DNA of 64,000 nucleotides from Cedecea neteri (GTDB taxonomy: Bacteria; Pseudomonadota; Gammaproteobacteria; Enterobacterales; Enterobacteriaceae): the NCBI RefSeq assembly GCF_000757825.1, contig NZ_CP009451.1:310001-374000 (forward strand), in the 5' to 3' direction. The first letter of the stretch is position 1. Each line of letters begins with the position of its first letter. Of this stretch, positions 5,017 through 59,649 are shown piece by piece. Made by a program: the position numbers and the translations under genes. Under the pieces are notes generated by a model, which worked only from the letters and a program-made list of their open reading frames with translations, made no database searches and was not told the origin of the DNA.

Positions 5017-6498
5017 TTATGAATCGCTAATATGCGATGCCGGTAGCTCATCGGCATTTTGGCTGCTCGAGCTGGTCTTATTGCGTCCCTGCCGTTTCGA
5101 CAGATACAGATTTTTATCTGCTTCAGGGATCAGCTGATTAAACGTTGCTTCCAGCGTGTTATTGCCCAGCGTGGCCTCAGCCAGGCCGATACTCACGGTA
5201 ATAAACAGCGACCGCTGCTCGTAATGGAAGCTGCTTGCTTCAATGGTTTTTCGAATCTGCTCGGCTATCTCAAAACCCTGCTTCGGATCCCGGGTTCGGC
5301 ACACCACCACAAACTCTTCCCCGCCAATACGTGCCACCATTCCCCGATTGCCCACGGTATCCAGCACCCTGGCAGCAAAAGAGGCCAACACCATATCGCC
5401 GCACTCGTGACCCCAGCTGTCGTTTATACGCTTGAAGAAATCAATATCCAGCAGCATGACGCACAGCAGCGGCTGCCCGATATCTGGCTGCTGGCGCGCG
5501 CTACGTTTGAGCGCTTCAAACAGGCCTGAGCGCGAATAAACGCCGGTCAGGTAGTCATAATCCGCCCGCAGCGACGTTTGCTTGATCAGTTGGTTAATGG
5601 CATCCACGCTGATGGAAACAATCAGCGGGCAAATGGCGATGGTGGCGATGCCCAGACGGGCGGAGAACATCTGATCCACCAGCAACAGCGGCTGCTCGGA
5701 GTGAAGATTGATCGCCGCATGGGCCACCAGCACAATTTCCACCGCCCCGGTAATCAACGTTAATAGCGCGGTGACCGGGAGCGGATAGCGTATGGCACAC
5801 CAGATAAGCGCCGGCAATGGAAACGCCAGGCTGCCCGCGCCACCGATAATCATCGCCGTGAAGACGGCAATCACGACGGCAAAAAGCGGATACATGTCGG
5901 ATGGCACAATGCCGGACAGCTTACGCCAGGAAGGCCAGCTTGCGGTCAGCAAGCACGGCAGCATCAGCACGCCGGTTGAAAACTGCTCGCTGACCCAGTC
6001 GGCATACAGCGGCATAAACTTTTCATGGTAATCACCACTAATACCCAGCGAGCCCACCGCGCCAAATAACGAAGATAATATGGCGGCAATCAGCGAGAAA
6101 TTAAAAATATTAAACGCATTTAGCGCCCAATTGCTCTCGTCCATATTGCGTGAATAACGCAACAATAAACGCGCGGCGGTGACAATAAAGACCATATTGG
6201 AAAAGTTAATGATCGTCGACTGCCAGCCCCACTGCGTGGTGAAAGCGTCGTAAACCAACATCGCCGCATAGCAAATAAAATAGTAAACGGCTTTATTCAG
6301 CCACGGATTGCGGACAAAGATGGCCGCCAGCACCGCATTCAGCGGCCAAAATAGCGACAGATCGTTAACCAGGCGTAGCGAAGCGCCAAAAAAGTAAAAC
6401 AGCGTGGTCAGAGCAAAAACACTGATGGCATTTAACAGCATTTTTTCTGGGGAAAAGAATAAAAACTTGGATCGATTAACCATGCTATCCTGGTTCAT
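5017..6498 (-). CDS. dgcF: membrane diguanylate cyclase, MASE1-GGDEF
   Basis: 493 residues with about eight hydrophobic segments forming an N-terminal MASE1-like sensor (to about residue 310), then a GGDEF domain with RIGGEEF (392-396), the metal-binding segment MLLDIDFFKRINDSWGH, and a final DKNLYLSKRQGRNKT. Domain make-up and position next to glsB fit E. coli DgcF (YneF), which is shortened at the N terminus in K-12; here the sensor appears complete. The product would make c-di-GMP in response to an unknown signal. Its start faces the PhoP-type promoter of the small membrane protein gene across a 250-base gap. Confidence 0.85.
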   Translation of the reverse strand: MNQDSMVNRSKFLFFSPEKMLLNAISVFALTTLFYFFGASLRLVNDLSLFWPLNAVLAAIFVRNPWLNKAVYYFICYAAMLVYDAFTTQWGWQSTIINFSNMVFIVTAARLLLRYSRNMDESNWALNAFNIFNFSLIAAILSSLFGAVGSLGISGDYHEKFMPLYADWVSEQFSTGVLMLPCLLTASWPSWRKLSGIVPSDMYPLFAVVIAVFTAMIIGGAGSLAFPLPALIWCAIRYPLPVTALLTLITGAVEIVLVAHAAINLHSEQPLLLVDQMFSARLGIATIAICPLIVSISVDAINQLIKQTSLRADYDYLTGVYSRSGLFEALKRSARQQPDIGQPLLCVMLLDIDFFKRINDSWGHECGDMVLASFAARVLDTVGNRGMVARIGGEEFVVVCRTRDPKQGFEIAEQIRKTIEASSFHYEQRSLFITVSIGLAEATLGNNTLEATFNQLIPEADKNLYLSKRQGRNKTSSSSQNADELPASHISDS

Positions 6499-6751
6499 AC
6501 TTATTCATCACCGCTGAAAATAAATAGCGCCATCAGGTGATTGCGAAAATAAGCATTAGCTTAGCATGTTTACCCAGCTAACAACCCCCGGGCATTGAGA
6601 GAAAGAGGAAAATTCACTCAACCTGCCAGCGCACAGCATCAACTATCAGCCATAAGCTAAATTTTTGCCACCTTCTGCAGACCACTGCATTCAGGGCAGG
6701 ATTTGCGACTAACAATTCACACTTATCGCCAATGAATAATTAGCAGACTCA

Positions 6752-6786
6752 GGTTTAACCGATGTTTAAAGTGACTGGCTTATAGT
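6752..6786 (+). promoter_or_regulatory. PhoP box and -10 element for the 39-residue membrane protein gene
   Basis: GGTTTA (6752-6757), five bases, TGTTTA (6763-6768): both halves match the PhoP direct repeat (T/G)GTTTA-N5-(T/G)GTTTA. Exactly 12 bases later comes TATAGT (6781-6786), a good -10, with no -35 needed. This spacing is that of classic PhoP-activated promoters and equals the one upstream of mgtS in this window. Predicted transcription starts near 6793, giving a leader of about 23 bases. The rest of 6499-6751, the dgcF upstream region, shows nothing else I can name. Confidence 0.8.
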
Positions 6787-6815
6787 CCCTGAACGAAGGA
6801 TTTCCCGGAGTCAAA

Positions 6816-6935
6816 ATGCGTAAAACCCCCTGGGCGGAGCGATTGCTTATCACCGCCATTATGATAGCCGTGCTGGCCACCGTTAGCCTGGTTGGCGTGC
6901 TATGGTTGCGCATACCGGGATTGTTGCTGCTGTAA
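6816..6935 (+). CDS. small hydrophobic membrane protein (39 residues), predicted PhoP-regulated
   Basis: The frame starts ATG at 6816 behind GGAG (6807-6810) and stops TAA at 6933. The product begins MRKTPWAER and ends RIPGLLLL. Residues about 10-31 form one strong transmembrane helix, with positive charge at the N terminus suggesting N-in, followed by a short second hydrophobic tail. It is not MgrB, MgtS, MgtU, PmrR or any other small PhoP-regulated protein I know. It sits where E. coli has yneG, between dgcF and glsB, and stops 12 bases before the convergent glsB stop. Function is unknown; PhoP-regulated proteins of this size often modulate a membrane kinase or transporter. Confidence 0.7.
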   Translation: MRKTPWAERLLITAIMIAVLATVSLVGVLWLRIPGLLLL

Positions 6936-6947
6936 TGCCAGAACAGT

Positions 6948-7874
6948 TTAAAAAATAGAACGCCCAATGCGCTGAGAAAGAATTTCCAGCGCGGCAGTCC
7001 CCGCCAGAGAGTTACCGGAAGCGTCCAGCTCCGGGCACCACACGGCGATAGACATCTCGTTCGGCACGTTGGCGATAATACCGCCGCCCACGCCCGATTT
7101 CCCCGGCAGACCTACGCGATAAGCAAATTCACCCGCACCGTCATACATGCCGCTGGTTATCATCAGCGCATTAATTTGCCGTGCGTGCTGGGCGGAAATC
7201 ACCGGCTCATCGAGATCCAATGCCCGTCCCTGATTTGCCAGGAATAAAAACGTTTTGGCTAATTCGAGGCAGCTCATTTCCAGAGAACAAAAATGGAAAT
7301 AGGCTTGTAGCACCGCAATCACGTCATTTTCGAAATTGCCAAAAGACTTCATCAGCCAGGCAATAGCGGCATTTCGCGCCGAATGCTCGAATTCGGAACG
7401 CGCCACGCGCGTGTTATAGACCAGATCCTCAGCGCCGGAAAGCTGACGAACCACCTCGAGCATGCGCTGCTTAGGCGCACTGAGGCGGGTTTGCAGCATA
7501 TCGCAAACGACCAGCGCACCTGCGTTAATAAACGGGTTACGGGGCTTGCCCTGCTCAAGCTCAAGCTGCAAAAGGGAATTAAAAGGCTGCCCGGAGGGCT
7601 CTTTGCCTACGCGCTGCCAGATTTCATGCTCTTCATAGCGCCCCATTGCCAGCGTCAGGCTTAGTACTTTAGAGATCGACTGAATGGAAAAGCGTTCTGT
7701 GGCATCTCCGGCGCTAAAGAATTCACCGTCAACGGTACAGATAGCAATGCCCAGCTTATTGCCGGAGACTTCTTCCAGGGCTGGAATATAGTTCGCCACT
7801 TTCCCTTTTCCCAGCAAAGGGCGAACCTGGTCGAGGATCTCTTCCAGTAACTGATTGTCTAATTGAACCGGCAC
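6948..7874 (-). CDS. glsB: glutaminase
   Basis: 308 residues, the exact length of E. coli GlsB (YneH), with strong similarity along the chain. The serine-dependent beta-lactamase-like fold is marked by SIQSISK (Ser66, Lys69), [11 protein letters not shown] and the glycine-rich KSGVGGGI. It hydrolyses L-glutamine to glutamate and ammonia in the cytoplasm. The order dgcF, glsB, sad, yneJ is that of E. coli, except that a chemoreceptor gene sits between glsB and sad here. Monocistronic. Confidence 0.96.
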
Positions 7875-59440: not shown

Positions 59441-59475
59441 CGGTTAGTCATTGTTTAAGTTGTGTACGGTATGAT
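59441..59475 (+). promoter_or_regulatory. PhoP box and -10 element of mgtS
   Basis: CGGTTA (59441-59446), five bases, TGTTTA (59452-59457), then 12 bases to TATGAT (59470-59475). This is the PhoP direct-repeat layout, equal in spacing to that at 6752. E. coli mgtS is PhoPQ-controlled, which supports the call. The leader continues to 59553 and contains the perfect palindrome ATTTCTATAGAAAT (59518-59531). Confidence 0.8.
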
Positions 59476-59553: not shown

Positions 59554-59649
59554 ATGTTAGGGAACATGAACGTATTTATGGCAGTACTCGGATTCATCTT
59601 GTTTTCCGGTTTTCTTGCCGCCTGGTTTAGCCACAAATGGGATGACTAA
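59554..59649 (+). CDS. mgtS: small membrane protein MgtS (YneM)
   Basis: 31 residues, nearly identical to E. coli MgtS: begins MLGNMNVFMAVLG and ends FSHKWDD, with one transmembrane helix (about 6-24). Start preceded by GGAGGA. MgtS protects the magnesium transporter MgtA from FtsH degradation and modulates PitA during magnesium limitation. It has no partner gene close by. Confidence 0.96.
   Translation: MLGNMNVFMAVLGFILFSGFLAAWFSHKWDD

Follow-up and report, generated by a model that had tools for sequence, protein, structure and literature searches.

Genetic organisation of the locus

The window, which is the whole stretch of 64,000 nucleotides of Cedecea neteri DNA analysed here, comes from a genome assembled as one contig of 4,876,443 bases. 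It contains a small gene of 39 codons on the + strand (6816..6935), whose predicted product, MRKTPWAERLLITAIMIAVLATVSLVGVLWLRIPGLLLL, is a 39-residue single-span membrane protein, as indicated by its homologues, its pN/pS and a predicted helix. Two PhoP-type half-boxes, GGTTTA (6752..6757, +) and TGTTTA (6763..6768, +), are found upstream as a direct repeat with a gap of 5 bases, and are followed, 12 bases 3′ of the box, by the -10 hexamer TATAGT (6781..6786, +). All three elements are invariant in the seven aligned Cedecea genomes. The short leader (6787..6815, +) carries a putative ribosome-binding site, GGAG, at 6807-6810; the distance from TATAGT to the ATG at 6816 is 29 bases, giving a leader of about 22-23 bases if transcription starts 6-7 bases past the -10 hexamer. 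Direct reading of the sequence thus reproduced exactly the repeat, spacings, TATAGT, leader, GGAG and 39-codon frame given in the preliminary description of this DNA.

To the left lies a divergent dgcF-like diguanylate cyclase gene (5017..6498, -; GGDEF domain TIGR00254 over cut-off) and to the right the convergent glutaminase B gene glsB (6948..7874, -; NF002132 over cut-off), with 12 bases separating the stop codons of glsB and the small gene. No co-directional gene is located 3′ of the small gene, and a role as an operon leader peptide was rejected on this ground. A search of Rfam with 6300-7200 gave no match at E<=1, and a consensus scan of the + strand from the small gene to 7151 found no terminator-like site.

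Distribution of the small gene

A frame of 39 codons is meaningless by itself, and conservation is what counts. The small gene is present in 7 of 8 Cedecea genomes; the exception is the draft G267, in which neither the small gene nor glsB was found. Profile searches recovered 18 full-length copies in 6 of the 154 sampled genera of the family (g1, which is Cedecea, g106, g66, g18, g28 and g3), and no intact copy in the other 148. Copies of g106 are recorded under "uncultured Cedecea sp." and "Klebsiella sp. BIGb0407", that of g3 belongs to Entomohabitans teleogrylli, and g66 is probably Dryocola-like, judging by protein P0011. There is one clear match per genome. The frame, the box and the position are conserved in relatives, a test that had been set beforehand.

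The first profile search matched 24 of 392 genomes at E<=0.02: 14 with full-length copies (E<=2.8e-14), G002, a full-length member with a weak match, G188 with a copy cut short, and eight set aside as chance matches that had internal stops, lay inside long frames or came from a very small genome. The second matched 18 of 329 genomes at E<=0.01, comprising 13 full-length copies, G188, a relic in G050 and three chance matches. At E<=0.1 the number of genomes was 55, of which the remainder were likewise judged to be chance, although not every one was read individually.

Searches of a protein database returned 23 clusters, every one of them unnamed, "hypothetical" or "uncharacterised". No Pfam or NCBIfam family was matched over cut-off; the lowest E-value that 29 members gave with Pfam was 0.037, and the window protein had no Pfam match at E<=10, in agreement with the earlier statement that it corresponds to no named protein. 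Protein search found no match on plasmids, and in the literature, covered as listings and abstract openings, no publication naming the protein was found. The small gene had also been described as falling outside normal gene-calling length. This holds in that it is called at most as hypothetical or uncharacterised, but several copies are in fact recorded, annotated in this way in Cedecea davisae, "uncultured Cedecea sp.", "Klebsiella sp. BIGb0407", Dryocola and Entomohabitans.

Selection on the reading frame

Among the seven Cedecea sequences, changes were mostly synonymous, with a mean pS of 0.30, a mean pN of 0.033 and a pN/pS of 0.11. Codon positions 1, 2 and 3 were invariant at 0.79, 0.97 and 0.46, respectively, a test that cannot separate the two strands alone as antisense third positions coincide with sense ones. 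A 70-codon antisense frame (6755-6967, -) overlaps the small gene. Its pN/pS was higher than that of the small gene's own frame in Cedecea (0.28 versus 0.11), g106 (0.46 versus 0.30) and g66 (0.37 versus 0.23); 15 of 17 copies keep it open over the small-gene stretch, the exceptions being the two g18 copies tested, in which it is broken. An opposite-strand gene was rejected for these reasons, and the antisense frame was judged to be a by-product of codon composition. In the copies read, the start codon of the small gene is kept, with a purine-rich stretch ahead of it. On comparative sequence grounds, we judge that the small gene is protein-coding and under purifying selection.

A PhoP-type promoter precedes the small gene

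Architecture I promoters of the PhoP regulon have been described as having one PhoP box in direct orientation, with about 12 nt between it and the downstream -10 hexamer, as in mgtA, phoP, yrbL, slyB, pmrD and orgB (PMC3335776). The corresponding repeat, (T/G)GTTTA-N5-(T/G)GTTTA, is found at 6752-6768, and the direct orientation and the spacing of about 12 nt were found in the window and in all 19 copies of the small gene scanned, the scan being made at a fixed 12-base spacing. Box and spacing are the same as in the known promoters of this type, but the target here is an undescribed small gene. The best site in each of the 19 copies scored 12-15 of 15; the weaker boxes, with 12 of 15, were those of the three g18 copies and the g28 copy, and the others scored 14-15. 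The distance from the -10 hexamer to the start codon was 27-34 bases in all 19. Upstream sequences that had been shuffled and scored in the same way reached 12 in 0.6% of cases and 14 in about 0.003%. As a further control, 2556 tiles of the window were scored; ten had 12 or more, two of these reaching 15. In the seven Cedecea genomes the half-boxes and the -10 hexamer are invariant, as against 50% of positions in the 12-base spacer.

The strict pattern GTTTA-N6-GTTTA-N12-TANNNT occurs at exactly two sites in the 4.88 Mb genome, compared with about 0.04 expected from base composition, which bears out the earlier view of a near-ideal PhoP promoter. The second site precedes mgtA, encoding the Mg2+-translocating P-type ATPase. 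Allowing spacings of 10-12 bases gave four sites, the two extra ones both at 10, and the backward pattern gave none. Each of the seven Cedecea genomes carrying the small gene has exactly two sites of the strict pattern, and tblastn of the second locus, read in all of them but G389, showed it to be that of mgtA in these six. That the small gene is a probable PhoP target is well supported by these sequence comparisons.

Structure of the predicted protein

The small protein is 38-40 residues long. A lone helix was predicted for residues 5-38 with a mean pLDDT of 86.5, using a 21-row alignment. The hydropathy of the window protein peaks at 2.64 over 19 residues from residue 11, the peak exceeds 2.2 in every full-length copy, and the putative transmembrane stretch, about residues 10-31 from hydropathy and column conservation, is encoded by 6843..6908 (+). 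All 19 copies have an N-terminus with a net positive charge, and by the positive-inside rule the protein would be oriented N-in, C-out.

Conservation is highest in columns M1, E8, I12, I15, V19, T22, S24, V26 and L29. From E8 onwards, and S24 apart, they step 4-3-4-3 along one face of the helix in a heptad-like manner. E8, which is invariant, is located just before the transmembrane stretch, and the remainder of this face (I12-I15-V19-T22-V26-L29) lies mostly inside it. Conservation was periodic near 102 degrees, a moderately significant result matched in 127 of 5000 shuffles and accompanied by a near-equal peak at 156 degrees. The conserved face suggests that the helix may pack against another helix.

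Genetic neighbourhood and history

The small gene was found adjacent and convergent to glsB for 16 of the 18 full-length copies, by tblastn or, in G393, by matching downstream sequence, and its left neighbour differs among genera in the loci read. The order in g18 is yneG-like gene, small gene, glsB and sad-like gene; in g28 the yneG-like and sad-like genes flank the small gene, and glsB was not found. The names YneG and Sad in these relatives are presumptive; the YneG-like proteins tested, like the SlyB-like ones mentioned below, had no NCBIfam match over cut-off. G027 keeps the small gene although a search at E<=1e-100 detected no glsB; the next gene there encodes an aldehyde dehydrogenase, which we take to be Sad. 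In G265 the small gene is about 2.9 kb from glsB.

The locus had been said to be the slot occupied in E. coli by yneG, and yneG was indeed there in the single E. coli region read, where it overlaps glsB by one base and leaves no room for the small gene. No DNA-level match to window 6500-7000 was found in E. coli. With no copy found by that DNA search or beside glsB in the single region mentioned, the small gene could easily be missed by work in E. coli.

Of 198 genomes with glsB, the glsB flanks of 70 were read: ten, all from g1, g106 or g66 and one of them cut short, show a box plus membrane frame, and 60 do not. The 60 include G265, and the flanks of g18 and g3 were outside this set. In G050 (g51) a decayed relic abuts glsB (L183), with its C-terminal half recognisable and no PhoP-type promoter detected. 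In G188 (g66) the copy ends prematurely after 26 residues, behind a PhoP-type site of 14 of 15 (L028). The relic and the cut-short copy indicate that the small gene can be lost. The simplest reading is that of an old gene at the glsB spot that was lost repeatedly; entry into one lineage followed by later transfer is a conceivable alternative history.

Comparison with known PhoP-regulated small membrane proteins

With its small size, one predicted helix and a PhoP-type promoter, the small protein resembles the PhoP-induced single-span small membrane regulators. MgtS is reported to bind and stabilise MgtA (PMC10925321), MgrB (47 aa) is described as a small membrane protein activated by PhoP and able to bind PhoQ (PMC10117436), and UgtS (34 aa) of Salmonella as a PhoP-controlled protein of narrow distribution with a predicted single N-in/C-out span, which binds PhoQ and UgtL and is encoded in an operon with ugtL (PMC8896665).

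MgtS (YneM, 31 aa) is likewise a small membrane protein with a PhoP-type promoter, at one mismatch, in the same chromosome stretch, but differs from the small protein, which does not match NF033842 and gave a profile comparison probability of 0.2%; in the case of single helices, such comparisons are weak evidence for or against a relationship. MgtS was found in 14 of 22 examined genomes and in 12 of the 18 with a full-length small gene; it was not found in the four g106 genomes, in G002 (Entomohabitans) or in the 73% complete G316. Replacement of MgtS as a rule was rejected from its presence in those 12. MgrB also differs, in that the small protein has no PF13998 match and the window protein has no cysteine. 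MgrB is encoded by a separate gene in 21 of the 22 genomes, the 22nd being 73% complete, and replacement of MgrB was rejected on this basis. Since both are encoded by separate genes in the window's genome, the small protein is neither MgrB nor MgtS, and from their counts it stands beside them. UgtS shares with the small protein a narrow distribution and a predicted single N-in/C-out span, and a difference lies in genetic organisation, the operon with ugtL having no parallel at a locus where the next gene is the convergent glsB. We conclude that the small protein represents a new protein family of an already known kind of protein. The observation is confirmed to be far beyond chance, and the preliminary description is supported on nearly every point.

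Possible functions of the small protein

From the promoter, the predicted topology and the conserved face taken together, we consider it probable that the small protein is a PhoP-induced, N-in/C-out regulator of the inner membrane which presents its conserved face to a membrane partner. The small gene would be transcribed alone from its PhoP-dependent architecture I promoter: when Mg2+ is low or another signal activates PhoQ, PhoP in its phosphorylated form would bind the box, which replaces a -35 element, and the small gene would be switched on together with mgtA. The peptide would then enter the inner membrane and bind its partner through the conserved face. PhoP control in vivo, the single-gene transcript, the topology and the binding of a partner are what we infer here, the last by analogy with MgtS, MgrB and UgtS.

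MgtA is the first candidate partner because its gene shares with the small gene the only exact promoter matches, and PhoQ is the second. Tentatively, the small protein may be a PhoP-induced subunit or modulator of MgtA (or PhoQ) that is found in some lineages only, alongside MgtS and MgrB. Regulation of PhoQ as such, by an additional lineage-specific feedback peptide alongside MgrB, seems unlikely, although the PhoP-type promoter and a single predicted N-in span, as predicted for UgtS (PMC8896665), agree with it. Such a niche would already be filled, given the MgrB found in nearly all genomes examined. Moreover, the window protein has no Cys and almost no tail past the helix, whereas MgrB has both a Cys and a tail beyond its helix.

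The convergent arrangement, the 12 bases between the stops and the lack of a + strand terminator-like site up to 7151 would also be compatible with a PhoP-driven antisense RNA that reads into glsB from its 3′ end and, in PhoP-inducing conditions, reduces glutaminase, the transcript mattering more than the peptide. The adjacency to glsB in 16 of 18 full-length copies and the failure to find either gene in the draft G267 point in the same direction. We regard this as improbable, because selection acts on the amino acids (pN/pS 0.11), the relationship between genera is visible at the protein level, and the small gene is kept in G027 with no glsB detected and at a distance from glsB in G265. Size and hydrophobicity would fit a type I-like hydrophobic toxin (Hok/TimP-like) repressed by an antisense RNA and preceded by a PhoP promoter by chance; a toxin is very improbable in view of the single clear match in each genome, the absence of Rfam matches from 6300-7200 and the conservation of the PhoP-type promoter. 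That the conserved promoter serves an untranslated small RNA and the frame is incidental can hardly be maintained against the codon-position pattern in the seven Cedecea sequences, the protein homologues that profile searches recovered from five other genera and the start codon retained behind a purine-rich stretch.

If the small protein is a PhoP-induced membrane regulator as proposed, the PhoP regulon, the subject of decades of work in E. coli and Salmonella, would gain a well-conserved target in sister genera. If it modulates MgtA or PhoQ beside MgtS and MgrB, several single-helix peptides of independent origin would be tuning the same set of PhoP-controlled membrane proteins in enterics. 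The small gene, of which natural variants exist, would offer a compact system for the tuning of membrane transporters or sensors by single-helix peptides.

Other PhoP-type sites in the genomes

With one mismatch allowed, 13 sites are found in the window's genome and 4 with the backward control, but this control exceeds the count in G106 (3 versus 6) and G214 (4 versus 8). One-mismatch sites are a poor guide to PhoP targets. In the window's genome, 11 sites have one mismatch, including those of phoP (NF008078), MgtS (NF033842) and a presumably SlyB-like lipoprotein; for the remaining eight we know of no PhoP link. Possible further PhoP targets are a phosphatase-like protein, matched in NCBIfam below cut-off, and a protein of 126 residues with no family assignment, which follow two of these sites, L180 and L174, respectively. 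The MgtS gene is located in the window at 59554-59649 (+), about 53 kb from the small gene, with its one-mismatch site at 59442-59475. G267, the Cedecea genome without the small gene, has the mgtA site and another exact PhoP-type site (L139, C47:1931-1964), which precedes a 187-residue frame.
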